A DNA stretch of 64,000 nucleotides. Origin: Anaerocaecibacter muris. GTDB taxonomy: Bacteria > Bacillota > Clostridia > Christensenellales > Pumilibacteraceae. The notes under the pieces are model-generated. The model was given only the letters and a program-made list of their open reading frames with translations. It was not told the DNA's origin and did not search any database. Below, one piece after another: positions 16,458-52,120 of the stretch. The stretch's first letter is position 1, and each line of letters opens with the position of its first letter. A program made the translations under genes and the position numbers. The stretch covers positions 62,001-126,000 of the forward strand of contig NZ_CALPCE010000003.1 of assembly GCF_943192945.1 (NCBI RefSeq), given 5' to 3'.

Positions 16458-16859
16458 TCAAATGCTGTAATACGCAATCAAAAACGACATACCTATTACA
16501 AAAAACGCGCCGCCGACTATAAAAAATTCCAAAAACGACCGTTTGTTTTCGCTCTTGCGCGCGCGGTAATCGGCATAGGTTTCCTTATTGCGTTTTTCGG
16601 CGGACTGAAATATCGAAAAAAACTTTTTAACGGAAAACCCCGCAATGTCGTATGCGCCGCCGTTACTGCAAACTACGATAAGCCCGACCAACAGCAACAC
16701 CGCGCCCGCCACCGAAAAGCAGTCCGTAAGCGAGCGCATGATCGCAATTTTATCCGTCATGCCGAACAAGCCCTGTATGAGCGCAATGCACAGCGCGACG
16801 GCGAGCGCGACCGCCGCCAGTACGATATATTTTACAATATGGCGTTTGCCGTCCGTCAT
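16458..16859 (-). CDS. DUF3899-like small membrane protein
   Basis: 133 residues with three membrane helices (about 8-30, 45-65, 108-130) and a basic cytoplasmic loop (SVKKFFSIFQSAEKRNKETYADYRARK) between the second and third. The arrangement fits DUF3899 proteins, whose function is unknown. Its ATG overlaps the oppF stop by 4 nt and a strong terminator follows, so it is the last gene of the opp operon. Confidence 0.65.
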   Translation of the reverse strand: MTDGKRHIVKYIVLAAVALAVALCIALIQGLFGMTDKIAIMRSLTDCFSVAGAVLLLVGLIVVCSNGGAYDIAGFSVKKFFSIFQSAEKRNKETYADYRARKSENKRSFLEFFIVGGAFFVIGMSFLIAYYSI

Positions 16860-21044: not shown

Positions 21045-21047
21045 ACG

Positions 21048-22628
21048 TCAGCCCTCCGTTCCGCGCAAGTTGGGGTTGAACGCGTCGCGCAAACCGTTGC
21101 CGAAAAGATTGAAAGAAATCATTAGCAACGCGATTACAAGCGACGGGAAAAGAATAAGGTGCGGATAGTTAATAAGGTTGCTCGCGCCCTGTCCCGCGGA
21201 CAGCAACGTGCCTAAACTGACAACACCCGACGACACGTCGTCAAAACGGATTATTCCGAGGAAGGACAGCATGGACTCGCTGAAAATTACGCTCGGGATA
21301 AACAGCGCGGCGGAAGTGATAATCGTGCCGAGCGCGTTGGGGAAAATATGCTTGACGATAAGTCGCCTGTCGCGCGCGCCGAGCGTTCGCGCGGCGAGCA
21401 CGTATTCTTGCTTTTTAAATCTGTAAAACTGCATGCGCACGGTGGAGGCAACGCCTATCCAGCCCGTAAGCACAAACGCAAACAGCAACGCGCCCACGGT
21501 GCCGACGTATTGTTGCAAGTGCATGTTGAACAGCACCGCGACAATCATAAACGGCACGCCGCTCAAAACGTCCACAATGCGTTCCATAATCATATCGACC
21601 TTGCCGCCGTAATAGCCCTCAATCGCGCCGTAAATCGCGCCGATAATAAGGTTGATAATCGCGACGCCCAGCGCGAGGATAAACGAAAACCGCGTTCCCG
21701 AAGCGAGGCAGACCAACAAGTCCTGACCGATACTGTTAGAGCCTAAAATATACAGAGGCTCGTACCCGTTAAGGTATACGAAATAATCGTAATAGCACAC
21801 ACGGCAACGGTAGCCAGTTTGGTTTATCTGCGCGTATCTGTATCTGTTTTCCGCGGCGGGGTCGGCAATACCGGGGTCGCCGTCCAGCCTAATCGAATCG
21901 TAATCGTCGTTGCCCGTAAGCCTGTAAATGGGAATATAATCGCCGTTTTCGTCCAGCACAGGCTCGCCCCTGTTCTTGCCCGTGAGGTAGGTTTTGTACC
22001 AGTAGTTGGCGTCGTTGACGTTGAACATCACTTGACCCGTGCCCTGCGCAGTGGTTATCTGCATGGGATAAATAACGCGCTTGCCCGTTTCGTTCTGATA
22101 CTTTTGCAAATCACGATATTGCTCGGCAGTCAAATCGACAAACTTGTAGCCGAGCTTGGTATAGCTGTCCAGTCTGAATTTATACAGCGTTTCGGTGGTG
22201 ACAACGCCGTTGAGCGCTTTGGTCGAAACCGTGCGTTTTCCGTAAAACTTGGTTATCGCCTTTTTTCCGCCCTCTTTTTCTATGGCGCGATAGTAGTAAT
22301 AGTTGGCTGTGTTAAGCTCCTCTGTGCTCGCGCCGTCCCAAAACCCGACAATGGGGTCGGTGGAAATTTTGGGGTAAACGTTGCTGTAAAACCCGTTAGT
22401 ATACGTCACGTCGTACTGCGAAAACAGCGGCGCGATAAACGCAAACAGCAACAGCACGATTATTATAACCATGCCGACGATGGAGGCTTTGTTTTTGACG
22501 AACCGACGCGTAGCGTCGCGCAAATATCCGACGGGCTTGGTGTCCAGTTTTTTATCGTGGATTTCGCCCTCTCTGTTTGCAAGCTCGAATTTTTCCGCGG
22601 GGATTGCGTTAATGTCGATATTATTCAT
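21048..22628 (-). CDS. oppC: Oligopeptide ABC permease (OppC-like) with large extracellular insertion
   Basis: 526 residues where OppC is normally about 300. Start MNNIDINAIP behind AGGTGA. The N-terminal OppC motif and first membrane helix lie at about 45-70. Residues about 75-290, between the first helix and the conserved LGSNSIGQDLL segment, form an added polar, Tyr-rich domain that should be outside the cell, with one CRVC pair. The remaining helices and the EAA loop (AARTLGARDRRLIVKHIFPNAL) are ordinary. The added domain may contact the equally enlarged OppA. Confidence 0.92.
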   Translation of the reverse strand: MNNIDINAIPAEKFELANREGEIHDKKLDTKPVGYLRDATRRFVKNKASIVGMVIIIVLLLFAFIAPLFSQYDVTYTNGFYSNVYPKISTDPIVGFWDGASTEELNTANYYYYRAIEKEGGKKAITKFYGKRTVSTKALNGVVTTETLYKFRLDSYTKLGYKFVDLTAEQYRDLQKYQNETGKRVIYPMQITTAQGTGQVMFNVNDANYWYKTYLTGKNRGEPVLDENGDYIPIYRLTGNDDYDSIRLDGDPGIADPAAENRYRYAQINQTGYRCRVCYYDYFVYLNGYEPLYILGSNSIGQDLLVCLASGTRFSFILALGVAIINLIIGAIYGAIEGYYGGKVDMIMERIVDVLSGVPFMIVAVLFNMHLQQYVGTVGALLFAFVLTGWIGVASTVRMQFYRFKKQEYVLAARTLGARDRRLIVKHIFPNALGTIITSAALFIPSVIFSESMLSFLGIIRFDDVSSGVVSLGTLLSAGQGASNLINYPHLILFPSLVIALLMISFNLFGNGLRDAFNPNLRGTEG

Positions 22629-22633
22629 TGTAA

Positions 22634-23590
22634 TCACCTCGCTCCCATTCTTATTCTCGGATCGATAAAGCCGTAACTCAAATCTATAATTAGGTTTGCG
22701 CCCAGCCCGATCGCAGTGTAGAACGCCGATATTGCCATAAAGAAGTTATAATCGAGCCGCCCGATCGATTCGACGTACAGCGCGCCGATACCGGGGATAG
22801 AGAAAATACTTTCTATGACGAGCGAACCCGACATAATACTCATGAACTGACCGAGTATCATGGGGAAAATAACGACCATGGCATTGCGCAACGCGTGACG
22901 AATAGTCGCCTGCCGACGCGTAAGACCTTTTGTACGCGCCAAAAGCATGTAATCGCAGGTAAGCACTTCGGACAGCTCGGCGCGCGTGTAGCGCGTAAGT
23001 CCCGCTATCGTGCCGAACGCGAGCGACAGTATCGCAGGGATAAGCGAGTACACCATTGCAGGCTCGAAGTAACTGCCCGTCGTGTTGGCGAGCAACGGGA
23101 ACCAGTTCAGCTTGGCGCACAGCAAGTACTGCACGAAAAACGCATACACGAACGACGGCACGGAAATAAACACCATGACAAGCGTCGAAATGGTATGATC
23201 CTGCCACTTGTTCTTTTTGACCGCGGCAAAAATACCCAACAGCAAGCCTATAGGAATACTTACGAGCAACGAATACAGATTGACCATAATCGTCGCGGGC
23301 AATTTTTCGCCTATGATGGAAGTGACGGTTTGCACCTGATACATCTGCTCGCCGTAGCCCCAGTCGAAGCCCGTCAATATGCGCTTCCAGAACAAAAACA
23401 GTTGCACGAGTATAGGTTCGTAATAACCCATAGCGCGCCGCCGCATTTCCACAAGCAACCTGTACTCCTCCGAACCCGTCACCTCGGGCAGAGGCAAAAG
23501 TTTAATGAATATAAAGCACAGCGAAAGGATTATAAACAGCGTCAACAGCGCGAGCAACAATCTTTTCACCACGTATTTAAACATATACAT
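22634..23590 (-). CDS. oppB: Oligopeptide ABC permease (OppB-like)
   Basis: 318 residues, normal size for the family. The N-terminal YVVKRLLLALLTLFIILSLCFIF helix opens the protein, and the EAA docking loop LLARTKGLTRRQATIRHALRNA is intact. Start at MYMFKYVV; GGAG lies about 10 nt upstream. It begins 241 nt after oppA and 5 nt before oppC, so B, C, D and F form a tight block. It is the only Opp subunit here without extra domains. Confidence 0.93.
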   Translation of the reverse strand: MYMFKYVVKRLLLALLTLFIILSLCFIFIKLLPLPEVTGSEEYRLLVEMRRRAMGYYEPILVQLFLFWKRILTGFDWGYGEQMYQVQTVTSIIGEKLPATIMVNLYSLLVSIPIGLLLGIFAAVKKNKWQDHTISTLVMVFISVPSFVYAFFVQYLLCAKLNWFPLLANTTGSYFEPAMVYSLIPAILSLAFGTIAGLTRYTRAELSEVLTCDYMLLARTKGLTRRQATIRHALRNAMVVIFPMILGQFMSIMSGSLVIESIFSIPGIGALYVESIGRLDYNFFMAISAFYTAIGLGANLIIDLSYGFIDPRIRMGAR

Positions 23591-23677
23591 GTTATCGCAT
23601 CTCCGTCGTACACCGAACAATCAAACGATTGATTGTCCCGAATAATGTTACCGAAAAATACCGTTTAACACACGTAA

Positions 23678-23708
23678 CGGGATGCGGACAAATCCTGCCC
23701 GCATCCCG
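23678..23708 (-). promoter_or_regulatory. Strong stem-loop between oppA and oppB
   Basis: Perfect 10-bp arms CGGGATGCGG and CCGCATCCCG with an 11-nt loop, not followed by a T tract. Such a hairpin usually stabilises the upstream message and lowers downstream expression, giving more OppA than permease. Confidence 0.6.
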
Positions 23709-23831
23709 CAATACCTATAAAACGCGTTGAGTTTTATGTTCCTTGCCGTGAACTAATAGAAAATCAGAGGTAAAATCGTGTTTTTACGCGTTAGATAGGT
23801 ACCTTGCCGTGTGCGCGAAAACCTTTATCCG

Positions 23832-26486
23832 CTAATTGGTCTTGTAGTAATCTTCGAGGTTGCCGCCCTGTTGACGCACCCAGTTGCTCCATTCGCTGTT
23901 GGTGTAGTTGTACTCGAAGTGACGGATTCCGCCAAAGCCGATAAGCGGCAAATACTGATCGCAACCGTTATTGAACTTCGCACTGTTTAGCGAGCCCGTG
24001 CTCTGATAGAACAGCGGAATATTGACCGCAGTGTTGAGCTGTGCAAGCTCGCATTCCGCAAGCACTTCCACGCGGAAGTCCATATCCGCCTCGCCTACTC
24101 TGCCCAGCTTTTTATAGAGATTGTGCGCCGCGCCGCCGTCGTAATCGGAATCGTCCTGATGGTTGTCGAGCCAGCGCGCCCAGTTGTAAAGACTTTCGGT
24201 AATTTCCTCGTTGCCTTTCTTGACGGTGATGTTTATGCCCTTGGACATAGTATCGAAGCCGAAGTTGTTGGAGTTGGCGGGGTCGATATAGCTACCGTAA
24301 ATAACGCCCCACGGATTGAACGTCGCGCCGCCCCAGCCGCTGAACGAAATGTCCATCTCGCCCTTTTTGACCGCCGCGGAATATTCCGCCTGGCTTGTCG
24401 AAGTGCCGACTTTGAGCGTAACGCTGCTGAACGTCGTGCCCGCAGGACACTTTTTAATCGCGTCCGCTATGTTCTTGTTAAACATTTCGGCGGTGCCGTT
24501 AAACATTTCGGAAGCGGTTTGACCCGCGGAACGGAGTTCGAGCACGACGGGTTCGCCGTCTTTGTACAAGCCCTGCGCTTTCGCCTCGTTGTACGCCTGT
24601 TGGAAGAGCGACGCGGCGTAGTCGGGATCATAGCCCGTTATCGCGTCGTAAGCCTCGTCCAGTGTGTCGAACTTCGTGCCGTTGTACGACGACCACTTGC
24701 CGTCCTCGCCCTCGATAAATCCCGCATAACGGAGCAACGCTTTTTTGGCGGCGGGTTGTTCGCGGTACAGTTCGCCCGTATTGCCGTCAATCGAGTACAT
24801 GTAATTGAGCAAGCCGAATCCGGGTTGCGAAGCAGGCTCCCACGCGTCGCAGTACGCCTTTCTGTCAAGGCTGTACGAAATAGCTTTGCGGAAGGAAGCG
24901 AGCTGCAACGGTCTATGGTTTTCGGTCGCGGAGCTCTCTTTTTCGAGATAGCTGGAATTGGTGGACATAAAGAACTGCATAGTGTAGCTGTCGGGATAAA
25001 CGTTGTAACTGCTCGAAGTGCCGAACGTCTGATATTCCGACGCGCCCGAAAGGGACAACTCGTCAACCTCGCCGCGGAAGAACAATTCTTTTGTGGTCGA
25101 GTGCGCCGTCTGCGGCGATACGTAGCGGTACTTAATGCAGGTAGTCTGGAACTGCCCCTCGTGATTGCCGTCGGTGTAGCCGTACCAGTTGGGGTTGGTC
25201 ACAAGTTTAAACTCCGAATCGCGCGTGAACGAAACAAGTTTGTACGGACCGTAAGAGGGCGTCGTCGCCGCGCTCGTGCAGTACGTGGAGGACACAAGAT
25301 TGCCGGTAGTAACCTTGCAACGTTCGTACACGTCCTGCTTGACAATCCAGTTACTGCTCAAATAATATTTGATATAAAAGTCGTCCTGTTCGTCGGTGAC
25401 GGCAAGAACAATCGTGTAATCGTCCTTCTTTTTGATACCGACATTGTCGAACGAATAGTCGAGGTTGGCGTTTTCTACCTTAATGGCAATAAATTGCTCG
25501 GCTCCACCGCCTACGTCGAGATCTTTCGATCCATATGCGTCATAAAGCATTTTCGCCGAGAACAAATAATCGCTGAAATCCAGTTTGTCCTGCGCTACCT
25601 TGGACGTATTGATAGTGCCGTCCGCGTTCATGTACTCGGGAGCTTTTTGCGCAAAGTATCCCAAATCGAAATACATGGTCGTATCCGTGTACGCCGTCCA
25701 CTGATCGGTTACGACCTTATCGTAATCCATGGTCAACGAGCAGTTCAAAACGGGTCGCGTCGGGGTCGCGTCGGGGTTGTCGGGATCGGGCACAGGCTCG
25801 CCGTACTCGATGTTCCACTCCGCAACCGCAGGCGCGCCTTCCGCGCCGTAGAAGTTAATCATGTCGATATAAAGAGTCTCGCCTGCCGCCACGGCTTCCG
25901 CATTGCTTGCGTATCCGTGCGAAGCAACCGATTCGTAAATAATGGGCGTATGTCCGTAAAGATAATTCTTTGCGCCGTAAATGGTAAAGCCGCCGCCCGT
26001 GTAGCTGTCCGACCTGCGGTTGAGCATGTCGGGGTCGAGCAACTGCTTCATGGAATAAACGTAATCGTCGGCGGTAATTGGCGTGCCGTCGTCCCACGTC
26101 GCGGCGCGGTTGAGCGGTATTTCCCAAACTTTGCGTCGGTCACCCGTCTTAATGCCGTACTGACCCGCGTACTGCGAAGTCACGTCAACGGGATCGCCCG
26201 CTGCCATTTCGGGCACCCATTCGTAACTCGTTTTATCTTTGTTGAGCTGAACGTCGTACAAACCCATAGTCGTAAAGCCGAGTATTACCGAGTCGTCGTT
26301 GGTCTCCCACGTGTGCGAGCTCCACGTCGTCGGGGTGGCGCTGAATATTGCGTTATAAGTATAGTTACCTTCGTCGTTCGTGCCTGCGTCGTCGTTACCG
26401 CACGCGACAAGCCCCCCCCCCGTCATAGCGCCGAGGGTTGCAACTATGCTTGTCATAGCCACCAGCTTTCGTAGTCCTTTTTTCAT
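23832..26486 (-). CDS. oppA: Oligopeptide-binding lipoprotein (SBP_bac_5, OppA-like), enlarged
   Basis: 884 residues; typical OppA is about 540. Start MKKGLRKLVAMTS behind GGAGGTG. The lipobox LVAC anchors it outside the membrane. SBP_bac_5 features: WEIPLNRAATWDDGTPITADDYVYSMKQLLDP, then FRKAISYSLDRKAYCD, and a late GWGGATFNPWG. Extra segments are spread through both lobes. Ten consecutive G residues encode the Gly run just before the lipobox (complement of 26412-26421), a site prone to slippage. It is transcribed from a perfect promoter followed by a terminator-like hairpin. Confidence 0.9.
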   Translation of the reverse strand: MKKGLRKLVAMTSIVATLGAMTGGGLVACGNDDAGTNDEGNYTYNAIFSATPTTWSSHTWETNDDSVILGFTTMGLYDVQLNKDKTSYEWVPEMAAGDPVDVTSQYAGQYGIKTGDRRKVWEIPLNRAATWDDGTPITADDYVYSMKQLLDPDMLNRRSDSYTGGGFTIYGAKNYLYGHTPIIYESVASHGYASNAEAVAAGETLYIDMINFYGAEGAPAVAEWNIEYGEPVPDPDNPDATPTRPVLNCSLTMDYDKVVTDQWTAYTDTTMYFDLGYFAQKAPEYMNADGTINTSKVAQDKLDFSDYLFSAKMLYDAYGSKDLDVGGGAEQFIAIKVENANLDYSFDNVGIKKKDDYTIVLAVTDEQDDFYIKYYLSSNWIVKQDVYERCKVTTGNLVSSTYCTSAATTPSYGPYKLVSFTRDSEFKLVTNPNWYGYTDGNHEGQFQTTCIKYRYVSPQTAHSTTKELFFRGEVDELSLSGASEYQTFGTSSSYNVYPDSYTMQFFMSTNSSYLEKESSATENHRPLQLASFRKAISYSLDRKAYCDAWEPASQPGFGLLNYMYSIDGNTGELYREQPAAKKALLRYAGFIEGEDGKWSSYNGTKFDTLDEAYDAITGYDPDYAASLFQQAYNEAKAQGLYKDGEPVVLELRSAGQTASEMFNGTAEMFNKNIADAIKKCPAGTTFSSVTLKVGTSTSQAEYSAAVKKGEMDISFSGWGGATFNPWGVIYGSYIDPANSNNFGFDTMSKGINITVKKGNEEITESLYNWARWLDNHQDDSDYDGGAAHNLYKKLGRVGEADMDFRVEVLAECELAQLNTAVNIPLFYQSTGSLNSAKFNNGCDQYLPLIGFGGIRHFEYNYTNSEWSNWVRQQGGNLEDYYKTN

Positions 26487-26564
26487 AAACACCTCCGAAA
26501 TGTGTAATTACCGTTAAGCGAATAACACTACTTATATAGTGTGACAAAAATCGCAAAAAAACGC

Positions 26565-26645: not shown

Positions 26646-26685
26646 GCATTTTTTGAAAGATTTTTGATGTTTGTCAAGCATTTTT
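26637..26685. repeat. Two direct copies of a 17-bp sequence around the oppA -35 box
   Basis: GTTTGTCAAGCATTTTT occurs at 26637-26653 and 26669-26685, 32 bp apart (three helical turns). The first contains the -35 box. They may be tandem regulator sites or a duplicated -35 region. Confidence 0.6.
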
Positions 26686-31208: not shown

Positions 31209-32951
31209 CTACTCCACGTTGCAATCAAGTTGGCACTTGATTCCATACAGTTTAATCGCACCGTCCGCGCCGTTTCGTTCGATTTTCACCCTTACCGCGA
31301 CGCAATAATAATTCACCCCACGCTCCTTGCTTTTGTTCGTGAAAACGTGATTATGTTTACTCAGTGCGGCAGTCGTGATATTATCCCATACGGGCTGCGT
31401 ATCATTCGCATTATTACTTGCAAGCACTTGTATTTTTGCGTCAAGTGGCGCAATCAAATCGAGTTGTACGTTTATCGCCTTAGGGCAAACAGCAATCTGA
31501 TTCCCGAACGGAACATACTCAAATTCTATGACGCCGCCTATCTTATTGAAATGTTTGGTCTGCGTCGCTGTAGCATTGTTATCGTCCATAACGACAATCT
31601 TTATCGTGTTGTCGCCTACGGGCAAATTATTCCACGTTTCGAGGTCAATTTCAAGTGTATTCTCCTGCGAACCCGTTGCGGTATATGTACGCAAAAGCGT
31701 CGTATTTACATACTCTTTGACTGTTACATTTACATCGTCGCCGTCGTACACAGTATATTTGTACTTGATTCGCGTCGCCGTATTTCCGAGCGCGGTATTA
31801 TCGCCCGAAATAAACGGAGGGTAATTATCCTGCACAACGACCGTTGACGCCGTTCGATATTCCCCCGATTGCGCTATACCCTTTACGGAACATACCCTAT
31901 ATTGAACGGTATTGATATTAGCGGTTATACTGTCAGTAAAAGAAATTCCGTCGCCGCTATATATCGGGTTAAACACGCCGCCGTTTATCGAACGCTCTAA
32001 AATATATTTTTCCGCACCCTCAACTGCGCTCCACGATACTTCAGCCTTTCCGCCCTCAATACCGCCCGTGTTATAGTCAGGGTTGCAATATATCGGCGTT
32101 TTGACCGCAATATTTTCGGGAGCGTCCACAGGCAAAAACAATTCATAGCAGCCCTCGTCGTCTACCGAGTCTGATACAAGAATATCAGATTTCAGATTAC
32201 AAAGCGGGCGCACGCCCCTCGTGCCGTGGTACGCAGTGTAGTAGTTCAACGAGCCGTCCGAATCGACGCCGCGGACGAGGCACGAGTACGACGAGTAAGG
32301 AGTTCTAAGCCACCAATACCACGCATTACCCTCAGTTCCACCGTCTTGCACGGTCGTTTGTCCTTGATAAGCAACTCTAACCGCGTTTGTGTTTTCCGCA
32401 AAAAGTGCGAGGATAGAACCCTCCGTAACTCCATTTTCTGCTGCACCAAATGTTTCGGCACGCGACGCCAAAAACACTTTACGCGTAATTGTTTCATAAG
32501 GACCATCGTCTAATGCGGGGTGGAGCGCAACCCTAATCGCCGTATCAAGTAGTGCTTTTTTGAACGCAGGCGAAAACTCGCTTAAAAATCCCGCTTTCGC
32601 AGAATAAGGGTTAGATGACACATAAGACGTGCTACTCGGTGCTTGGTCTGCACTATGACGCGCCGAATACCACACTCCTGCCTCCGCGTCCGAATTGAGC
32701 CATTGGTCAATATTCGATACGGAATACCTATTGTTGCCGTAATTCTTTCTGTTGCTGTCGGCGTTATTCGGCTCCTTTGCGTCAGCAGCACGCCGTGCAA
32801 TGATTTTTTCCGTTATAAGCGTAGTGCTACCGCTCGGATAATCGGTATGGTCGGTATCGGCTTTTACCCATACGATAGGAACTCCGAGATATTTTGTATC
32901 TTTTTCTTTTATTTTTGCCCCTATGGGCAAACTGCCTAATGTTTGCGACAT
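31209..32951 (-). CDS. DGR variable protein: C-type-lectin-like (DUF6273-type) domain plus FN3-like domains
   Basis: 580 residues. About 1-255 is a C-type-lectin-like domain of the kind annotated DUF6273, ending with WYWWLRTPY and GTRGVRPLC. The variable repeat encodes residues 217-250. Against the template, residues 219, 222, 224, 225, 228, 230, 237, 238, 239 and 242 are changed, mostly Asn (AAC/AAT) to Tyr, Leu, Gly, Asp, Thr or His. About 280-375 is FN3-like (EVSWSAVEGAEKYILERS), then another beta domain. The variable site is internal rather than C-terminal. Its ATG overlaps the reverse-transcriptase stop (TAATG). As the gene follows the tail fibre gene, it is probably a receptor-binding tip or a displayed ligand binder. 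Confidence 0.92.
   Translation of the reverse strand: MSQTLGSLPIGAKIKEKDTKYLGVPIVWVKADTDHTDYPSGSTTLITEKIIARRAADAKEPNNADSNRKNYGNNRYSVSNIDQWLNSDAEAGVWYSARHSADQAPSSTSYVSSNPYSAKAGFLSEFSPAFKKALLDTAIRVALHPALDDGPYETITRKVFLASRAETFGAAENGVTEGSILALFAENTNAVRVAYQGQTTVQDGGTEGNAWYWWLRTPYSSYSCLVRGVDSDGSLNYYTAYHGTRGVRPLCNLKSDILVSDSVDDEGCYELFLPVDAPENIAVKTPIYCNPDYNTGGIEGGKAEVSWSAVEGAEKYILERSINGGVFNPIYSGDGISFTDSITANINTVQYRVCSVKGIAQSGEYRTASTVVVQDNYPPFISGDNTALGNTATRIKYKYTVYDGDDVNVTVKEYVNTTLLRTYTATGSQENTLEIDLETWNNLPVGDNTIKIVVMDDNNATATQTKHFNKIGGVIEFEYVPFGNQIAVCPKAINVQLDLIAPLDAKIQVLASNNANDTQPVWDNITTAALSKHNHVFTNKSKERGVNYYCVAVRVKIERNGADGAIKLYGIKCQLDCNVE
32170..32189. promoter_or_regulatory. Hairpin just downstream of the variable repeat
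   Basis: Perfect 7-bp arms TCTGATA and TATCAGA with a 6-nt loop, 10 bp past the 3' end of the VR in sense direction. In the Bordetella phage DGR a hairpin at the same place boosts retrohoming; this copy has the same geometry. Confidence 0.6.
32200..32302 (-). repeat. DGR variable repeat (VR)
   Basis: 103 bp aligned without gaps to the template repeat at 34160-34262. Twelve mismatches, all at positions where the template has A in the sense strand: A to T five times, A to G four, A to C three. The sense 3' third (32200-32227) is unchanged, GC-rich, and serves as the likely initiation-of-mutagenic-homing site. Confidence 0.95.
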
Positions 32952-34003
32952 TATTTGTCCTCCTTTTTGAATAACTCATTATAGAGTTTATCTGTTTTTC
33001 TTATCAAATGATAGCAATTCCCGCGCTCAGCGTGTCCGCGCCAACTGCGATACGAACATTCGATACGGGTCATCGGCAACCTACCCTGTTCGTGCAAGCC
33101 TTTGAATTTTTTGAGGCGACGACAGATACCCGTTTTTGATTGCCGACGCAGTTTCCGTATAACCTTTCCGCTGTCGGTCAAATAAGTATGAAACCCCAAA
33201 AAGTCAATTCCGTTACGGAGCGGAGAAATTTGCGTTTTCTCATTCAGTTCAAGCCCAAGTTTGCCCACATAGGAGCGAATCTCGTTCAAGCATTTTTTCA
33301 GAAATTCTTTATCCTCGTGTATCAGGTAAAAGTCGTCCATATATCGACCGTAAAACTTAATGCCGAGTTTCTCTTTTATATAGTGGTCTAAACCATTCAG
33401 ATATAGCAGAGCAAAAAGTTGTGATGATTGATTTCCTATCGGTATGCCGACCTCTCCCTCTGTGCTGTCGATTATCATATCGAGCAACCATAATGTATTT
33501 TCACAGGAGATATGTTTGCGCAGTAACGATTTCAATATGCCGTGATTGATATTGTAGAAAAACTTTCTAATATCGCACTTAAGCACCCACCCGTCCGCCG
33601 ACTTGTGTTGACGATAGTATTTATGTAAAAATTCCGTCAGGCGGCTAAGCCCTAAATCGGTGCCTTTACCGACCTGCGAGGCGTAGTTATCGTATATAAA
33701 ACTTTTTATCAGTATCGGTTCGAGAACATTATCGCATAGCGAGTGTTGCACGACCTTATCCTTATAACTATTGCTCATCACAAGCCGTTCCTTAGGCTCG
33801 TAAACATAAAAACGGTTGTATGGTGCCAACGTGTACGTTTTGTTTTGCAGTTGGTACTTTAACAGCAGCAATGCCTCCATAAGATTGATTTCAAACTTGA
33901 TTGCTGCGTCTTTCCACCGTTTGCCTTTTCGAGCCTCTTTATACGCGTTATATAGATTCTTAAACGCGTAAATTCGTTCGTATAGCGTTTCATACTCCTG
34001 CAT
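32951..34003 (-). CDS. DGR-type reverse transcriptase
   Basis: 350 residues; start MQEYETLYERIYAFK behind AAGGAG. RT motifs in order: RLVMSNSYKDKVVQH (RT1-2), LKCDIRKFFYNI with catalytic D144 (RT3), EVGIPIGNQSSQLFALLYLN (RT4, the IGNQSSQ form typical of DGR and related RTs), and GRYMDDFYLI with D223/D224 (RT5), then NGIDFLGF (RT7). It should copy the TR-containing RNA into cDNA with errors opposite adenines, working with Avd. No intron-type maturase or endonuclease domain. Gene order is avd-TR-RT-variable gene. Confidence 0.95.
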   Translation of the reverse strand: MQEYETLYERIYAFKNLYNAYKEARKGKRWKDAAIKFEINLMEALLLLKYQLQNKTYTLAPYNRFYVYEPKERLVMSNSYKDKVVQHSLCDNVLEPILIKSFIYDNYASQVGKGTDLGLSRLTEFLHKYYRQHKSADGWVLKCDIRKFFYNINHGILKSLLRKHISCENTLWLLDMIIDSTEGEVGIPIGNQSSQLFALLYLNGLDHYIKEKLGIKFYGRYMDDFYLIHEDKEFLKKCLNEIRSYVGKLGLELNEKTQISPLRNGIDFLGFHTYLTDSGKVIRKLRRQSKTGICRRLKKFKGLHEQGRLPMTRIECSYRSWRGHAERGNCYHLIRKTDKLYNELFKKEDK

Positions 34004-34072
34004 AATTTCAACTCCTTGCCGCATATAGCCTGTGCCTTTTTGCAAATGCACTCACGTCGGCAATCTTGTGTT

Positions 34073-34091
34073 TATCCTTACGGAAAGGATA
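34073..34091 (-). ncRNA. Stem-loop in the DGR RNA between TR and RT
   Basis: TATCCTT and AAGGATA form a perfect 7-bp stem with 5-nt loop in the roughly 155-nt stretch between the TR and the RT start. In studied DGRs this part of the RNA is structured and primes cDNA synthesis; here that is inferred. Confidence 0.5.
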
Positions 34092-34159
34092 TGCCCTCCT
34101 TTGTTGGTGGAGTTCTGCTTTCGCCTTGAAAATGGCTACTCGGACTGACTTTTGCCCAC

Positions 34160-34262
34160 CAAAGCGGGCGCACGCCCCTCGTGCCGTTGTACGCATTGTT
34201 GTTGTTCAACGAGCCGTCCGAATTGACGTTGCGGACGTTGTACGAGTTCGACGAGTTAGGAG
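34160..34262 (-). repeat. DGR template repeat (TR)
   Basis: Non-coding 103-bp template between avd and the RT gene. In the frame of the target it would read PNSSNSYNVRNVNSDGSL then NNNNAYNGTRGVRPL, rich in AAC/AAT codons, the usual DGR design: these codons reach many residues but no stop by A mutation. 25 sense adenines, 12 already differing in the VR. Confidence 0.95.
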
Positions 34263-34285
34263 GAACAGGGCATACCCTATGTGTT

Positions 34286-34699
34286 TTATTGATTGTTCTG
34301 CTGCCGCTTGTCGTTGTTGCGCCACGCGGCAGTCATTTTCTTTACCTCGACGACAAGCCTGCTCCAATATTCCGCCGAGTCGATACTCAGTTCGATAGAC
34401 GGTATTTTGTGCGATAACTCAATCATTGTATTCAGCAACTTACACGATACGATTACCTCCTGTTGACAGTCTAAACGCCGTTGGCGTTCGTGAGCGTCGC
34501 TTAAATTACACTCATTCGCCCGTACCAAATTTTCGTATATATCAATGGCAAGATTTTCGATTCTTGCCCCGATAGAAAATCTGTACTTTTTCGGGAATCT
34601 GTTTGTGTTTGCGGTCAATGTGCAAGTATGCTCCATAAGGTCTTTAGCCTTAGTGATGACCGACATTTCTTTTGGCGAACGCTCATTATACTTTAACAT
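34286..34699 (-). CDS. avd: Avd-like accessory variability determinant (four-helix bundle)
   Basis: 137 residues; start MLKYNERSPKEM behind GAGGTG. The segment FPKKYRFSIGARIENLAIDIYENLVRAN matches the second helix of Avd/23S-intervening-sequence four-helix proteins, followed by helices around RQRRLDCQQEVIVSCKLLNTMIEL and YWSRLVVEVKKMTAAW. Avd forms a barrel that binds the RT and the DGR RNA. It overlaps the upstream small gene by 7 nt and directly precedes the TR. Confidence 0.88.
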   Translation of the reverse strand: MLKYNERSPKEMSVITKAKDLMEHTCTLTANTNRFPKKYRFSIGARIENLAIDIYENLVRANECNLSDAHERQRRLDCQQEVIVSCKLLNTMIELSHKIPSIELSIDSAEYWSRLVVEVKKMTAAWRNNDKRQQNNQ

Positions 34700-34932
34700 T
34701 GCAAGCACCTCTCCGCACCGTCAAGCGTGCCGCTCGTAAGCGTTATGCCGCTCACGGATAAACTTTTGAACATTGCTACCGCGCCCGTTCCCGTCAGAGT
34801 TCTCAAACTCATTTGCAGGTCTGCGACGTCAAAAACGCTTGCGCCGCTTTCGTTTGCCATATCAATGAGCGCGTTCATCGTTCCAAGCAGTTTACGCGGT
34901 TCCGATATATCCTTAAGCGCGATTCTATCCAT
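34693..34932 (-). CDS. Small prophage protein, tail-module
   Basis: 79 residues from MDRIALKDISEPRK, behind GGAGGTT. Predicted helical N-terminus and a short beta C-terminus (SLSVSGITLTSGTLDGAE). It lies between the fibre and avd genes with overlaps on the avd side. No family recognised; a small fibre-assembly or tip protein would fit the position. Confidence 0.55.
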   Translation of the reverse strand: MDRIALKDISEPRKLLGTMNALIDMANESGASVFDVADLQMSLRTLTGTGAVAMFKSLSVSGITLTSGTLDGAERCLQC

Positions 34933-34943
34933 ACGCAACCTCC

Positions 34944-36683
34944 TTAATTTGCCAAGATAATATAGTTGACGGTTACGCCGTCTGCGGCGGTTCCGTTATT
35001 CCTACATAAAATCGTACAGGTGTTTCCCGATATGTTTACAGCGGCAGTAAAAGCCGTCTTATCGGGCGTCGCCGTTGCCGTAAAAATGGCGTTTACAGAC
35101 GCGGCAGTAATCTCTACGCCTTTCGATTCTCCCGCTGCGACATTCGTCAATTCCGCCGCCCCTACAAGCAGTTTCAGCCCGTTGCCGAGTTCGATTATGC
35201 CGTTGCCGTTATCAATCGCGTTTACCGCCATATTTGCCGAAAAATACGCTTTACCGCAACGGACGACGCACTCTCCGACGTACTTATAATCGGAATACAG
35301 AACAATTTCCCCGTTCGGTTTAACGAAATACAGATTTGCGTTCGCGTAGTATTCGCCGTCGTGATAGATACGCAAATCGACCAAAACGGACAAATCGGTT
35401 CCCATACCGTGCATTTCGGGCGTTATCGTTATGTAATACAGCCCGTCATCGTCGGCAACTGCAGTCCACGAACTCGCAACGATATTGAACTTGTAACTCG
35501 GTATATCGGTTATGGACGGTGCGGTATATATCGCCGCAACGTACCACCCGTCTATTTCCGAACTTTCGGGAGCCGCCCAATAATAGTAGGTGTACACCTC
35601 GCCCTTATTCGGCATAGCCGAATCAACGACCTGCACCGCGTCCGTATTGTCGGGCGTCGCTCTGCCCGTAGCCGAAAAGACCGCTGCATTTAACGCGTTT
35701 ATAAGGCTTTCCGACAGTTCGGCAGGGTTCGCGTTCTCTATCCTGCCCCTGATTTTGCGCGGCACTACGCCGAGTTGCAATGAATCAATATCCTCGTTTA
35801 TAGAATCAATCATACCGAGAATATCGGTGTCCTGCCCTTGCATATTACCGATAGTCTTTTCAATGTTCGTAAGCCTGTTATCCTGCGTTCCCTGTTCCGA
35901 CCTATACACGCCGATAGCGACCGTTTCCGCTTTTGTGTAACTGTCCTCTTTCGTTCTGAACAGATTATCGGCGGCTATTTTCGTATATCGCTCGTTTATT
36001 TTATCAAGCAATACGGAGCCGCTCTGAGCCTGTAAAGCCGCCGCAATATCGTTCAGGCAAGTTTGTAAGGCGACGGGCGTTTTGACGTTCTGCGTGGCAG
36101 CAGTAAGCCCATACGCCTCGACAACCAACTTTGCCGCCAAATCGCAACTGTATATATCGTCGATGAGGTCGGCAAGTTTCTTTCCTGCGCCGTACTTTTC
36201 GGGCAAGCCGACCTCAGCCGCGCCGTCCGCGCTTTTCAGGAGCGTTTTATACTCCGTCAGCCGCTCATTTGCATTGCTTATCTTTTGCGCAATGCTGTTC
36301 AAAATCACCTGCAGAGATTTCAGTTTGTCATCTGCGGGCGTTTCATACGCGAGAACATACGCCGCAAGTTTACCGTTCAAACAAGCATTGCATAGGTCTT
36401 GCAGACTGTAAGAAAAGCCCTCGATTTTTTCGCTTTCGGGGTCAAGACCCGACAAATCGAGTTTAACGTAACTTGCCGCGTCGTCGCCGCTCAGCGCGTC
36501 CTGAATCACATTGATTTTCTCGGCAATAAATTTGCCGATTTGGTCGAACCACAATTTTAACGCCGTGGACGACATACCGCCTGCGCCATAGGGCGATACG
36601 ACGTTCGGCTTATCCGCAAGCGCAACGACGCCCTTTGCTTTCAGTTCGGCGGGCGTGATATTTACAAATCGTTTTAATGACAT
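34944..36683 (-). CDS. Tail fibre / receptor-binding-type phage protein
   Basis: 579 residues. N-terminal adaptor-like region (SLKRFVNITPAELKAKGV), a long helical and coiled-coil middle (about 80-320, including NIEKTIGNMQGQDTDILGMIDSI), then a beta-rich distal part (about 330-579) ending in a small Ser/Thr/Ala beta domain. This is the plan of trimeric tail fibres. AGGAGGG precedes the ATG. It is directly upstream of the DGR, so the variable protein may mount on it. Confidence 0.65.
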   Translation of the reverse strand: MSLKRFVNITPAELKAKGVVALADKPNVVSPYGAGGMSSTALKLWFDQIGKFIAEKINVIQDALSGDDAASYVKLDLSGLDPESEKIEGFSYSLQDLCNACLNGKLAAYVLAYETPADDKLKSLQVILNSIAQKISNANERLTEYKTLLKSADGAAEVGLPEKYGAGKKLADLIDDIYSCDLAAKLVVEAYGLTAATQNVKTPVALQTCLNDIAAALQAQSGSVLLDKINERYTKIAADNLFRTKEDSYTKAETVAIGVYRSEQGTQDNRLTNIEKTIGNMQGQDTDILGMIDSINEDIDSLQLGVVPRKIRGRIENANPAELSESLINALNAAVFSATGRATPDNTDAVQVVDSAMPNKGEVYTYYYWAAPESSEIDGWYVAAIYTAPSITDIPSYKFNIVASSWTAVADDDGLYYITITPEMHGMGTDLSVLVDLRIYHDGEYYANANLYFVKPNGEIVLYSDYKYVGECVVRCGKAYFSANMAVNAIDNGNGIIELGNGLKLLVGAAELTNVAAGESKGVEITAASVNAIFTATATPDKTAFTAAVNISGNTCTILCRNNGTAADGVTVNYIILAN

Positions 36684-36693
36684 ATAGCCCTCC

Positions 36694-39348
36694 TTAATTT
36701 TTCAGTCGTCCTACTACCTGATAGCGGAACGAAATATAGTACAGCGCAAAAGGTTTCATATACTCATCGGAATAAATGTAGTATTGCTTTTCAACCCATT
36801 GCTTTTCTTTTTCTTTGACCGCAAACAAACTCTGTTCCGTCGTATTAAATGTAAAGTCCGTAAAGTCCATATCCTCAAAAGAGAAAAGACTGTTATTGAT
36901 TCGGGCGATTTGCGTGTACGGCTTTTTATTCGTTCGCACCTTGATTTTTGCGGACGAACTGCGGAACGATTTAGTCTTTATCACGGTCGATTTTTTTACC
37001 GTGTTTTTCGTCAAATGCGGTATGCCGCAGCAGTCCATTTTCGTCGCACAACCGCTGTAAATCGTTCTATTATCGAACGTGTACCAACGCGGCTCGATTT
37101 CGCCCTCGGAGTTTCTTTTATCGAAATTGAACGAGCATACGACGCCGTTTTTTGTGCCGAAATAGATATTGTCGAACATATCGCGTATCGTCGTTGCTTT
37201 TTGAAATACGCCGCCGATATATTCTCCCTTACCCTCGCACAAATACGCCTCGTAACGTACCAAATCGCCCGAAAAAATATCGTAGACCTCGTGTACCGTA
37301 TAATAAACGCCGACCGTATATTCCAACCCGTCAATTTCTACCGCAACGCCCTCTGTAAACACTCGCGCCGTTTCCTTTCCGTAGTCATCGGGCGGGTTTA
37401 CTACCTGCCCTGTAAGATTCAGCGTTTCGTGAGTATTCATAAAGTACACGTTTTCGGCAAGCATAATCGGAATTTCGATAATATGGTCGTCGTTACCGCA
37501 AGTACACTCGTTTTTGCTCTTTTTGCATTTCGTACAGTATTTGACTGTTTTGCCTTGTAATTCCTCGGCTATTTGCGTCGCGTACTTGTATTCGGGATAT
37601 TGCCCTTTATACACGCCGACGTTCTCGATATAATACCATTCGTACTGATTGACGCCTATTGCGTGCGTATAACGCTGTCGGCTGTCCGCCATAAAAATGC
37701 ACCCGTCCACAAGTACCAAAAGATACCCGTTCCATTCCGCAACCACGGCAGAACTTAAGTCCATATTGACGATTTTCGCGTCTATAAGGCTTGAACGGTG
37801 TTCGTTCGCCCTCTCGTACCGCACAGACAGTTGCCCGACCGCCTCTACGCCGAGCCGCGATATAAATATCGGGTCGTCCAAAAAATTGATACAAGCACCC
37901 AAACAACCTATGCCGCTTAACCCCTGCGAGGACGGATAAATTACAGGCTGTATCGAGTCATTCGTCTGCGTAGGCGTATGAAAATAAGTTGACCCGTCCT
38001 GTTGCGTATCGTCTTTCAAAACCATAAGCGTATCGGCAACGGTAATCATTCCCGTAATGGGCGCGACTCCCACGCCGTCCTGCATATAGTTCAAAATGCC
38101 GAAATACGAGGGGTCTACATAGCCCGTAGAATTTCTCGCGGCGTAAAATATGTGATTCGGATAATTCGGGTTCCCCGACAGAAAAACCCTATTATCGTAA
38201 ATTGTCGCAATAGTACAATCGGTTATAAGCCTTGATATTTCCGCACATTCATCGGTAACGCCCGATACACTCGTAAATACTTTTTTAGCCACAACCTCGA
38301 TTCCCGCGTACATTTCGGGATAAAAGACGTTTTCGCTTTCTGTCGCTCCTGCAATCTGCACGACGCGCTCAGGCTTTTCGGGTGCAACGATAAACTTAAT
38401 ACTGCCGTTAGCAAGACTTACGGTAAAATCGGTTCCCTGTACTTTTGCCTGCCCGTAAACCTTTACCGATACAATCTCATCGAGAGCATTTTCATTGAGA
38501 AAAAACTCCGTCGTCGTGCCGTCAGCGATAAACGTATGCCTAAACTTAGACTGCAGAATGTTTCGCTGCTCGTGTTGCTTACCTATATCGGCGTTTTCGC
38601 CGCTCGTAATAATATTGATATAAGTAAGCGGGATATAAGCGTTATCCAATACGCTTTTTACGCTCACGCCGTCATATACCAAATAATTTTTGCCGTCAAT
38701 GATATACAGCCTGTTATTGAATATAAACGACGTGCTTTTTCGGGGGTTCATATTATCAAAAAGCGCGTCTGCCGCGGTTAAAATGCCCTCTTTATAAGAC
38801 AGCAAAAGTCTATCGCCTGCAACCAAATCGCTGCTTGCATAAGACAGTTCCCGCGTAGCCGCGTCATAATTCATCAAAAAAGTTAAGTCCTCGCCGTTTG
38901 TCCGCGCTAACGCGGTAACGGTAACGACATTCTCAGGTAAAATCTGCTTAAATGTTTTCGTTCCGTTTACAACGGAATCGGGTTCGGGTACTACAATCGT
39001 TTCACTTAGAACAATATTTGCGGTATTCGGGTAATTTTTCCACAAATACAGTTTGCTCCCCGAATGAATAAGAACTTTGGTAACGATTTTATCGCCGTCT
39101 TTATGCGAAAAATTGAATATACCGAAAACATCGCTTTCCTCAGGCAATACGACGCGCTTTCTGAACCCTGCAATCGTTTCAAGTGCCTGCCCCTGCGAGG
39201 ACTGATAATCTCTGAACATATTTACAGCGTAAGCGAGGCGGTGTTCGTCAACCTGCGTATGGTCGCTCGAAAAATCAACGCCTCTGAAATCGCCGTAATA
39301 TCTGTTGTATGTTTCCCTCGCTTGGAGGAAATTTGTTCTCGTTGCCAT
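36694..39348 (-). CDS. Large tail protein (podovirus stabilisation-protein-like)
   Basis: 884 residues, beta-rich, starting MATRTNFLQARET. The opening, with YYGDFRGVDFSSD and RLAYAVNMFRDYQSSQGQALETIAGFRK, is the pattern of podoviral tail-tube 'stabilisation' proteins that follow the head-tail adaptor. Residues about 610-630 hold a Cys cluster, YCTKCKKSKNECTCGND, that would bind zinc and is unusual in such proteins. It starts 5 nt after the adaptor gene. Confidence 0.6.
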   Translation of the reverse strand: MATRTNFLQARETYNRYYGDFRGVDFSSDHTQVDEHRLAYAVNMFRDYQSSQGQALETIAGFRKRVVLPEESDVFGIFNFSHKDGDKIVTKVLIHSGSKLYLWKNYPNTANIVLSETIVVPEPDSVVNGTKTFKQILPENVVTVTALARTNGEDLTFLMNYDAATRELSYASSDLVAGDRLLLSYKEGILTAADALFDNMNPRKSTSFIFNNRLYIIDGKNYLVYDGVSVKSVLDNAYIPLTYINIITSGENADIGKQHEQRNILQSKFRHTFIADGTTTEFFLNENALDEIVSVKVYGQAKVQGTDFTVSLANGSIKFIVAPEKPERVVQIAGATESENVFYPEMYAGIEVVAKKVFTSVSGVTDECAEISRLITDCTIATIYDNRVFLSGNPNYPNHIFYAARNSTGYVDPSYFGILNYMQDGVGVAPITGMITVADTLMVLKDDTQQDGSTYFHTPTQTNDSIQPVIYPSSQGLSGIGCLGACINFLDDPIFISRLGVEAVGQLSVRYERANEHRSSLIDAKIVNMDLSSAVVAEWNGYLLVLVDGCIFMADSRQRYTHAIGVNQYEWYYIENVGVYKGQYPEYKYATQIAEELQGKTVKYCTKCKKSKNECTCGNDDHIIEIPIMLAENVYFMNTHETLNLTGQVVNPPDDYGKETARVFTEGVAVEIDGLEYTVGVYYTVHEVYDIFSGDLVRYEAYLCEGKGEYIGGVFQKATTIRDMFDNIYFGTKNGVVCSFNFDKRNSEGEIEPRWYTFDNRTIYSGCATKMDCCGIPHLTKNTVKKSTVIKTKSFRSSSAKIKVRTNKKPYTQIARINNSLFSFEDMDFTDFTFNTTEQSLFAVKEKEKQWVEKQYYIYSDEYMKPFALYYISFRYQVVGRLKN

Positions 39349-40282: not shown

Positions 40283-41323
40283 TTATAGCGACGTTGCCGC
40301 GGAAATCGCGTCTTTGCTGTTGACGGCAAGCAGGATATGTTTCCAAGTATTGAACCCGACACCGAAACGGCAGTAACCGTTCCAAAAGTAGTTGCGGGTG
40401 TGCTTGTCAATATCGCTCGTAATGTCAAGCGGAACGCGGTTATAGAACATATTGCCGAGCAGGTTCTTGTTGGCGTCGCCCGACATAACCATAAACCTGT
40501 CGTCGTCCGCCTCCCAACCGTTCAGCACAACGATATTCCAATTCCCGTACTGAGTATTTATATCGTTGTTTGCGCTGCCCACGGTGCGCTCGGAGCCGAC
40601 AACCTTTTTGACGAGCGTTTCGAGTTTCGGACGATTGCAGGGAATGATGAGAGTGTCCGCGACATACTCCATAACGTCGCCGTTTTCGTCCTTGAAATTG
40701 CGCACCTTATTCGAGAGAACGCCGAGCGCGTCCTCAAGCGTGCTTGCGCTGCCCGTGAGTTCGCCGTAGTAGTAGTTGCTCTGCGTCTTGCCTTTCATTT
40801 TGTCCGTCGAATACGGGTGCGCCTTATGGAACAGAGCGAGTTCGTCGGCGCAAGTCAAATCAACCTTTGCCTTGTTGAACGTCATCTCTTTCGCCGTGCC
40901 GTTGATGAGAGCCTGCGCCGCGATTTTGATACGCGTCTTGTAGTAGGCGCGAACGAACTTTTTGGGCTTGTTTTTCATATCCGCGCCCATACCGAACTTT
41001 GCGTCGTCCGCCATTTTGCGGGTAATGGTAAACTCTTTCGCAAATTCGATATGCTCTATCGTTTTCTTGAACGTAGGCTCGACGCTATCGTTCTCCGCGC
41101 CCTGTCCTTCCTGTTTGCTTTGGAACGTATCGAAATCGGACTCGCCCATAATCGTTTCGGCGTAGCGGCTCGATTTTTCGACGTTGAAAAGAAAATCGAG
41201 TATGCTTTTCTGCTTTTCACAGATATTCGATTCGTTCTCGATGAGTGCCTTTATCGGGTGTTCAAACTTACCGAACATAGGGTCGTTTTTGCCCGACATT
41301 GCGCTGTAGATAAAATTCGACAT
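40283..41323 (-). CDS. Major capsid protein (HK97-like)
   Basis: 346 residues; MSNFIYSAMSGKND behind GGGAGG. Position after scaffold and decoration genes, size, and features such as FAKEFTITRKMADDAKFGM (E-loop/spine region), NYYYGELTGSASTLEDAL, YVADTLIIPCNRPKLETLVKK and a C-terminal NGYCRFGVGFNTWKHIL are those of HK97-fold capsid proteins. It would assemble the procapsid on the acidic scaffold protein encoded two genes upstream. Confidence 0.85.
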   Translation of the reverse strand: MSNFIYSAMSGKNDPMFGKFEHPIKALIENESNICEKQKSILDFLFNVEKSSRYAETIMGESDFDTFQSKQEGQGAENDSVEPTFKKTIEHIEFAKEFTITRKMADDAKFGMGADMKNKPKKFVRAYYKTRIKIAAQALINGTAKEMTFNKAKVDLTCADELALFHKAHPYSTDKMKGKTQSNYYYGELTGSASTLEDALGVLSNKVRNFKDENGDVMEYVADTLIIPCNRPKLETLVKKVVGSERTVGSANNDINTQYGNWNIVVLNGWEADDDRFMVMSGDANKNLLGNMFYNRVPLDITSDIDKHTRNYFWNGYCRFGVGFNTWKHILLAVNSKDAISAATSL

Positions 41324-41340: not shown

Positions 41341-41742
41341 TTAAATAATTCTGACGACGATAATATCTCCCGCCGCCGACGCACCGTTCAGACTTTCTAC
41401 GGTTACGACGCCGCTCGTGGTGGTCGCCGTTACCTGCAAGCCGTCCGTATGCAGAGTTACTTTACTGCCCGCCGTAAGCCCCGTAGGAGCCGCCGTAACA
41501 GGCACCTCGTAAAGTTGATTGTCCTCGACCCTTGCCGCCGCAAGAGTGCGTTTCGTTGCGTCTGCCGCAACGCTGCCCATAGCGATATGCGTAGGTTTTA
41601 CCGTTGCACCGCATTTCGTGAACTTACCCGACGCCAAAACGAGAGCCTCGCCGTATTCGACCGCCTCGTCGTCCGTTACGTCGTGGTAAACGGGTTCGGG
41701 TACGTTCATTCTGCCATTCTCAATTTTAATGAGTTTGAACAT
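41341..41742 (-). CDS. Capsid decoration / head fibre-like protein
   Basis: 133 residues, almost all beta. N-terminal half contains DVTDDEAVEYGEALVLASGKFTKC, and the C-terminal half alternates Val/Thr (GSKVTLHTDGLQVTATTTSGVVTVESL). Such small beta proteins directly upstream of the capsid gene in transcription order are commonly capsid decoration proteins. Function is inferred from position. Confidence 0.55.
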   Translation of the reverse strand: MFKLIKIENGRMNVPEPVYHDVTDDEAVEYGEALVLASGKFTKCGATVKPTHIAMGSVAADATKRTLAAARVEDNQLYEVPVTAAPTGLTAGSKVTLHTDGLQVTATTTSGVVTVESLNGASAAGDIIVVRII

Positions 41743-47300: not shown

Positions 47301-47306
47301 AAGCGA

Positions 47307-47342
47307 TAAAAAAATGGGCTTGTCTTAATCTGACAAGTCCAT
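47307..47342 (-). terminator. Terminator after mnmG at the prophage border
   Basis: Minus strand ATGGACTTGTC and GACAAGCCCAT form an 11-bp stem with one mismatch, then TTTTTT. It ends 7 nt before the first codon of the truncated giant gene. Confidence 0.75.
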
Positions 47343-47486
47343 TGTAGAGCAACATTTTTGAAAGATTTTATATGTTTTTCTATATTTACATACAATTTTC
47401 GCAAGGCTTTTCGCAGTTGTACATAAATAAAACAAATGCGAACAAAAGCCGACAAACGCCCGCAAGCCTAAATAACAGCCGCGGCG

Positions 47487-49441: not shown

Positions 49442-49825
49442 TTATTCAAAACAGTCCAGCTCGCGCACTCTTATTTTGAGCAGTCGCACCAAATCCAAAA
49501 CAAAACTTATGTACCATATCGCCAAAGCGTCAACATCGACGTCCATGACCCCGATGGTAATCTTTTCGTAAGCAGAATAAATCCAATCGTAAATTTTTTC
49601 CGCATCCTTACGATTGTTTAAGGCTTTAACCGCTTTGGGTTCGGCGCGCACGCATATTTCGAGAAAAACCGCCTCGCTCCTGTCGTCGCGCAAATAATCG
49701 ACTAAAAATTGCTCGACAACATCAAACACACGCTTGTGCCTGTCGCCGTAATGCAATCTGCACGCCTCGATTATCGCGCTTACCGGCGGCTTGTCGGTTG
49801 TTCCGTTTTTAATCGTGTCGTTCAT
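49442..49825 (-). CDS. Hypothetical protein
   Basis: 127 residues, predicted helical, acidic, no signal peptide or membrane helix. Notable segments are EACRLHYGDRHKRVFDVVEQFLVDYL and IYDWIYSAYEKITIGVMDVDVDALAIW. No family recognised. It has a good promoter (49913-49941) and a long leader of about 80 nt. It does not appear linked to mnmG, from which it is separated by 86 nt. Confidence 0.6.
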   Translation of the reverse strand: MNDTIKNGTTDKPPVSAIIEACRLHYGDRHKRVFDVVEQFLVDYLRDDRSEAVFLEICVRAEPKAVKALNNRKDAEKIYDWIYSAYEKITIGVMDVDVDALAIWYISFVLDLVRLLKIRVRELDCFE

Positions 49826-49912
49826 AAAAACTACCCTTATCCCGTGTGTTGTAGTATTATACGGTCAAGCCCGCGCAATAGCGATTGAGCGCACCGTTTT
49901 CGTCATATAATA

Positions 49913-49941
49913 AGTATACATCATTATTTAACGCAAGTCAA
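49913..49941 (-). promoter_or_regulatory. Promoter of the 49.4-kb hypothetical gene
   Basis: TTGACT, 17-nt spacer, TATACT on the minus strand. Confidence 0.6.
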
Positions 49942-49997
49942 TCAAATCACCATTATAGCACAGATACGACAGTAGTGATTATTGTTAAACTGACGAC

Positions 49998-50246: not shown

Positions 50247-50351
50247 CGTTAATTGCCGCAATTAAATAACAAGTGTAAACATAACGCGACGCCTTATCGA
50301 AATTAAATAACGCGACGCGAACAATACGCGCGCCGTCATGCGCCCGCACGC

Positions 50352-50384: not shown

Positions 50385-50401
50385 AGGATTATTTTTGTGC
50401 G

Positions 50402-52106: not shown

Positions 52107-52120
52107 GTTACCGCAACAGT

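Follow-up and report, generated by a model that had tools for sequence, protein, structure and literature searches.

Tentaclins are described in the available text of PMC10743442 as proteins in which an N-terminal C-lectin domain carrying a variable repeat (VR) is followed by immunoglobulin (Ig) domains; the same source gives a C-lectin-like model for DUF6273-type domains and describes tentaclin diversity-generating retroelements (DGRs) in phages nd12 and nd4. The other point of reference is BPP-1, whose spacer RNA, according to the accessible part of PMC12875486, recruits the complex of reverse transcriptase (RT) and Avd and primes complementary DNA, and whose efficient homing, according to that of PMC3240598, needs a GC-rich hairpin 3′ of the VR. 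Here we analyse a DGR on the minus strand, at 31209–34708, of a 64,000-nucleotide stretch of Anaerocaecibacter muris (contig NZ_CALPCE010000003.1, positions 62,001–126,000; hereafter the window). As far as the nd12 and nd4 elements are described, the window element shares with them a target of about 570–580 amino acids (aa) with the DUF6273/C-lectin domain first and the VR internal, and an RT directly followed by this target. It differs in that nd4 and nd12 are described as small myoviruses with two targets, whereas here the genome has one VR, and the phage, a remnant, has a giant gene. We are highly confident that the element is a tentaclin-type phage DGR. Comparison of sequences further suggests, with somewhat better than even probability, that the clade to which it belongs finds its target by a linear motif of ATCT boxes 3′ of the VR instead of a hairpin of the BPP-1 kind.

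Architecture of the element and its relatives

The earlier note on this DNA had described a complete DGR, with avd, template repeat (TR), RT and target together and a gapless 103-bp TR/VR pair, and both the open reading frames (ORFs) and a realignment agree with it (Table 1). All 12 TR/VR mismatches fall on the 25 adenines of the TR (hypergeometric P = 3.4e-9) and comprise five A>T, four A>G and three A>C substitutions, while none of the 78 other bases is changed; the mismatch pattern claimed earlier, with all three substitution types, therefore stands, except that 77 other bases had been counted. The adenines occupy first and second codon positions only, with 15 codons changeable and a stop codon impossible. 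The 3′ end of the VR is GC-rich and devoid of adenine, and TR and VR have the same letters up to the end of the repeat; the available texts of PMC10743442 and PMC5006420 place at the VR 3′ end a GC-rich initiation of mutagenic homing (IMH) element, distinct from the IMH* of the TR. Within its own genome, which comprises 1.97 Mb in 12 contigs, the TR gave two strong matches only, the TR itself and the VR, the next-best match being 22 bases long (E 0.18). A second VR in this genome was rejected, since there is no further strong match. An ORF of 81 aa at 34693–34938, which overlaps the start of avd, is without a match in Pfam, NCBIfam and PHROGs. The BPP-1 DGR has avd, TR and RT in the same order and on the same strand as the window, and its RT is 31.0% identical (E 3e-42). 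However, its target precedes avd and has the VR at its end, whereas the window target comes after the RT and its VR is internal, away from the gene end.

The RT matches phrog_1423 (445.8 bits, E 7.7e-133) and RVT_1 (E 1.4e-18). The closest solved structure is 8ub7 (E 5.7e-44), which we take to be the BPP-1 enzyme (the database label reads merely 'Reverse transcriptase'); the next chains, of retron type and group II, score no better than 1e-12. The window RT reads IGNQSSQ at the motif that is IGSLTSQ in BPP-1 and QGxxxSP in five group II RTs. A tree of 31 RTs included five of eight named group II loci, three being left out; these five split off at 100/100, and the window RT clusters with that of a prophage of Candidatus Onthoplasma faecipullorum (L093) and that of viral contig L016 (100/99). 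A group II intron, or another mobile RT beside a chance repeat, would find some support in the match of the group II intron RT model TIGR04416 to the window RT (106 bits). The cut-off of this model is 300 bits, however, far above the score, and mismatches are confined to adenines in the window as well as in its sibling L014 (see below). Because profile score, solved relatives, motif and tree all place the RT among DGR RTs, group II affiliation was rejected; the grouping with group II introns that the earlier note had named as its refutation is not what the phylogeny gives, and we regard this alternative as extremely improbable. As far as the present RT set goes, the window RT thus appears to belong to the DGR RTs.

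The Avd-like protein matches phrog_3206 (E 1e-25), and a search of solved structures returned no relative of it. For the spacer between TR and RT, 40 of 66 distinct sequences were aligned without the use of structure, and a fold was built from eight pairs proposed by RNAalifold and three added by hand. The resulting three helices are common to the 40 spacers, with 93.4% of 423 cells paired as against 75.9% in shuffled and 19–45% in slid alignments, and nine of the 11 pairs are changed on both sides (shuffled mean 6.1). By analogy with BPP-1, the spacer RNA of the window clade may play the same role as the BPP-1 spacer. RNA, RT and Avd would then also act biochemically as they do in BPP-1: the TR RNA with its structured spacer would be copied by the RT together with Avd, and copying errors would arise opposite template adenines.

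As for the target, phrog_10993 ('Hoc-like head decoration') spans its aa 1–564, and the targets of nd4 and nd12 align to it over 97–98% at 38–39%. It is the one DUF6273 protein of its genome, and its DUF6273 domain contains the VR, a tentaclin-like arrangement at the level of sequence. Targets with DUF6273 from Faecalibacterium phages, which are other phages, likewise have the VR at the C-terminal end of this domain in the accessible part of PMC11792537, whereas the likeness of the phage Lelie target covers just 33% of the query. The window target hence appears to resemble tentaclins, and its element would be a further member of the tentaclin DGRs; from the description in PMC10743442, so far as available, a surface binding protein may be surmised. 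Among the points against the tentaclin-type reading, the Avd-like protein stays below the cut-off of both curated models (NF033474, 41.7 of 80 bits; PF22296, 28.9 of 40 bits), the window spacer folded alone adopts a different minimum fold (z -2.1), and Pfam detects no Ig or fibronectin type III (Fn3) domain in the target.

A survey with the RT as query covered the best 80 viral-contig loci and the best 80 genome loci, which with the window make 161. After filtering, an A-biased TR/VR pair was present in 132 of the 161 loci, window included; over the 166 pairs in these loci, 2106 of 4184 adenines and 69 of 10502 other bases are changed, a tally that is biased because the pair score favours A. 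Pair searches with another template letter gave one locus of the 161 for C, 32 for G and nine for T, and the G-template pairs may be a mirror view of A>G pairs. Complete targets following the RT are proteins of 566–616 aa with the VR within codons 214–297. In three loci (L028, L036 and L044) there is a second, smaller target per TR, 9.4–9.5 kb downstream or 5.3 kb upstream, and followed by ATCT-type sequence. The window's own genome has two further RTs of the DGR kind, L187 (G000:C10:33000-45038) and L186 (G000:C6:55000-72000), each adjoining a lectin-like target; in the tree they cluster with each other and with BPP-1 Brt, apart from the window RT. In L187 the TR/VR pair is 101 bp long and all 11 mismatches fall on adenines; the looser pair of L186 has 21 adenine and six other mismatches.

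Variation among sibling phages

The earlier note had proposed counting variants over the VR in reads or sibling genomes, and two siblings, L013 and L014, permitted such a count in place of reads. L013 is 99.79% identical to the window over 16,004 bp, and 17 of its 33 differences are located inside the 103-bp VR and none in the TR (clustering P 5.9e-29); 16 of these 17 lie at TR adenines (P 1.4e-11), as do 11 of the 12 mismatches between its own TR and VR. L014 is 94.8% identical to the window around the DGR, and all 12 mismatches between its TR and VR are at adenines. Two positions, both T in the window, distinguish its TR from the window TR, and at both the L014 VR matches its own TR: letters of the TR appear in the VR. 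Compared with L014, the ratio of replacement to silent substitution rates (dN/dS) is 5.9 for the VR, as against 0.077 for the target minus the VR, 0.046 for the RT and 0.063 for avd (five changes). The target is constrained outside the VR, and replacement is in excess inside it. In both siblings variation is thus concentrated on TR adenines, and the claim that the system has worked on this target is upheld at the level of the lineage. Near-identical sibling phages such as these provide natural evidence of diversification.

Two features of the sibling data count against this conclusion. Both siblings are metagenome contigs, and at base 74 of its VR L013 has C changed to A, a non-adenine position, which gives an in-frame TAA unreachable by adenine mutagenesis of the window TR. 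Since L013 is a metagenome contig, this TAA may be an assembly error. A group of six differences in L013 at 41456–41478 was considered as a second hypervariable site and rejected because the differences yield runs of T and C, resembling reading error. Against L014 over 31246–38172, target and RT reach 41 differences per 250 bp, and beyond 34.5 kb there are at most six; this steep change in divergence points to a possible recombination of the DGR block. The window's 888-aa gene is broken in two in L014 by a 25-bp gap at 38172–38198.

Sequence 3′ of the variable repeat

What marks the VR as the target is an open question of DGR biology that this locus touches. It is argued in PMC8144416, so far as its text is available, that the location of VRs at gene ends reflects a need for the cis elements of retrohoming to be non-coding, and the accessible part of PMC5006420 reports a putative hairpin within coding DNA of one archaeal target. 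In contrast to BPP-1, whose hairpin as given in the available text of PMC3240598 is GC-rich and 8 bp long, no such hairpin was found after the window VR: a search of this flank for the BPP-1 type (7–10-bp stem, 4-base loop) gave a stem of 7 bp with 29% GC and a 6-base loop. We assembled 134 distinct 3′ flanks, 116 from loci with an RT at least 42% identical to that of the window (the clade) and 18 others; the 42% border was set after the flanks had been seen, and flank counts are counts of sequences, not of independent events. A GC-rich stem of at least 6 bp occurs in none of the 116 clade flanks, six of which have an AT-rich stem of that length, whereas it occurs in 10 of the 18 distant flanks, and the same script recovers the BPP-1 hairpin. 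A hairpin as target element was accordingly rejected, the window stem being AT-rich and its relatives lacking a GC-rich one.

Instead, the clade flanks share a motif core, ATCTTNGNATCT, which is exact in 67 of the 116 and has one mismatch in 37, two in nine and three in three. In 78 of the 104 flanks within one mismatch it begins 14–21 bases after the VR. By comparison, 0.47% of random windows come within one mismatch, and no copy within two mismatches follows the TR in any of the 116 loci or is present in any of the 18 distant flanks. We favour, if with some reserve, the view that this large clade gave up the BPP-1 hairpin and that an array, ATCT-N3-ATCT-N4-ATCT just 3′ of the VR, took its place. 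The codons of the peptide S-x-I-L-V-S can spell the array, which can therefore be intragenic; this would explain how tentaclins come to have an internal VR, despite the gene-end argument as set out in the available text of PMC8144416. In the C-terminal targets of the clade the array would on balance lie at or behind the stop codon: in an alignment of 11 chosen loci of this type the three ATCT boxes are invariant, with spacings of 3 and 4 bases, and the stop stands ahead of the second box in seven.

Alternatively, the ATCT-type sequence may have been kept for the sake of the protein, as the S-x-I-L-V-S end of the DUF6273 domain, and not as a target-site element. In most loci it does lie in frame in a homologous protein segment. 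Yet its conservation extends to the choice of codon: in 38 aligned tentaclin genes the top five excess-conserved codons outside the VR, among 111 columns scored, are the motif codons, which are conserved far above gene usage while the codons of other conserved residues are not. S255 is TCT in 36 of the 38 genes (12% expected from their own usage), S260 TCT in 33 of 38, V259 GTA in 36 of 38, L258 TTG in 27 of 35 and D261 GAT in 29 of 35. Moreover, in seven loci the motif, with at most one mismatch, lies beyond the stop codon. A control with DUF6273 domains from genomes of the class points the same way. It covered 29 loci (L213–L241) out of a far greater number of matches; 26 of the 29 gave a usable domain, and an RT was sought within roughly 1.5 kb on either side. 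Only one of the 26 domains, that of L219, has the motif with one mismatch at most, and in this locus a clade RT adjoins and the motif stands after the stop; the motif is absent from the 24 domains without an RT within that distance and from that of L234, whose RT stands at 42%.

Two further comparisons lend support to a role in the protein only. Although nd12 has the ATCT motif exactly, the core does not occur with fewer than two mismatches on the coding strand of a 13-kb stretch of nd4. Scanning IMG/VR with ATCTNNNATCTTNGTATCTGA brought up 84 stretches; among the 80 exact matches listed, 48 lie behind a DGR-type target (recognized by an RT, a TR or a VRP-type protein end, which is the only sign in 10 of the 48), and the other 32 are without any DGR sign. 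Taking both sides together, we consider conservation for the protein alone rather unlikely.

The target-site role of the ATCT array is least evident in the window itself, where two observations tell against it. The window copy is off at three of 13 fixed bases, an equally good score being reached at seven placements in both strands of the window, that in the VR flank included; and the window flank has the longest inverted repeat of the clade, which is AT-rich. Near relatives also depart from the 10 core bases, with three mismatches in L014 and L093 and two in L016 and L017. The degraded copy and the 7-bp inverted repeat make the motif claim firmer for the clade than for the window locus. No report of the motif was found in the literature searched, which excluded preprints and most subscription journals. 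Should a codon-embedded linear motif mark the target across this phage clade, target sites would become predictable from sequence, and the search for a factor that reads the ATCT boxes would become concrete.

The prophage remnant and its insertion site

Table 1. Positions of the retroelement and of associated phage genes in the window
Feature	Position	Strand	Remarks
avd	34708-34286	minus	Avd-like accessory protein, 140 aa
Template repeat (TR)	34262-34160	minus	103 bp, 25 adenines
Spacer RNA between TR and RT	34104-34162	minus	three covarying helices across relatives
RT	34051-32951	minus	366 aa, GTG start, IGNQSSQ and YMDD
Target	32951-31209	minus	tentaclin-like, 580 aa, DUF6273 at aa 42-255
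Variable repeat (VR)	32302-32200	minus	103 bp, in target at about codons 217-251
Degraded ATCT-type motif 3′ of VR	32172-32196	minus	two overlapping placements, each 3/13 fixed bases off
rve-type transposase at phage end	26887-27909	minus	same place in Onthoplasma prophage L183
Phage major head protein	40283-41323	minus	phrog_371, E 2e-7
Giant phage protein, C-terminal 1401 aa	43095-47300	minus	cut at remnant edge 47286

That the DGR lies in a prophage remnant, as had been proposed, is confirmed by comparison with G002, a longer contig containing L014: identity stops at 47286, inside the giant gene, and the terminase/portal end is lost. Whereas 1401 aa of the giant protein are left in the window, the frames of four relatives (G002, G003, G004 and G009) measure 3166–3927 aa; the remaining part has no Pfam or solved-structure match. 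Beyond the giant gene, the relatives have a terminase (G002, G004 and G009) and a portal (G004, with a weak match in G002). Searched against the window's own genome, the G002 terminase gave one partial 30% match elsewhere and no other. The Candidatus Onthoplasma faecipullorum prophage (L093, L182 and L183), whose RT and target are 79% and 70% identical to those of the window, has after the target the same gene order, with the rve transposase at 14214–15356 of L183, but unlike the window it retains a 3191-codon giant gene and a terminase. An rve (DDE-type) transposase that takes the same position in both hosts seems to be a phage integration gene. A deletion mediated by an insertion sequence (IS) as the origin of the transposase end of the remnant was rejected because the intact prophage has the transposase at the same place.

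The gidA region was compared in six genus relatives, out of 20 genomes including the window's own, and none of the window's phage proteins is found in it at E 1e-8. There, gidA adjoins the orthologue of the window gene 15474–16346 in five of the six relatives (4.7 kb lie between in L194), and the orthologue of 61647–62906 is on the other side of gidA in four. A phage-free gidA region in the relatives, together with the lost terminase/portal end, indicates that the prophage is an insertion, now broken.

It might accordingly be asked whether the DGR is a fossil, which diversified its target in the living phage but is silent in the remnant, the window VR being a frozen copy. Both the loss of the terminase/portal end and the degraded motif 3′ of the window VR would fit such a history. 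On the other hand, all three reading frames, those of target, avd and RT, are open, and the IGNQSSQ and YMDD motifs of the RT are retained; the RT and the target outside the VR are strongly constrained in comparison with L014, although this constraint reflects the phage lineage. The motif copies of L014, L016, L017 and L093 are similarly degraded, and L016 and L093 are not remnants here. We hold the fossil explanation to be quite possible, if somewhat short of an even chance.

The roughly 200 bp that separate the limit of phage identity from the end of gidA (47287–47486) have no match in G002 or in the genus relatives. Within them, a 15-bp word at 47355–47369 is repeated in direct orientation at 26650–26664, near the other phage end. 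Two flanking stretches, 16458–26492 with peptide transport genes and 49442–61600 with sugar and other enzymes, are missing at this place in the genus relatives fetched, and the site is therefore variable beyond the prophage.

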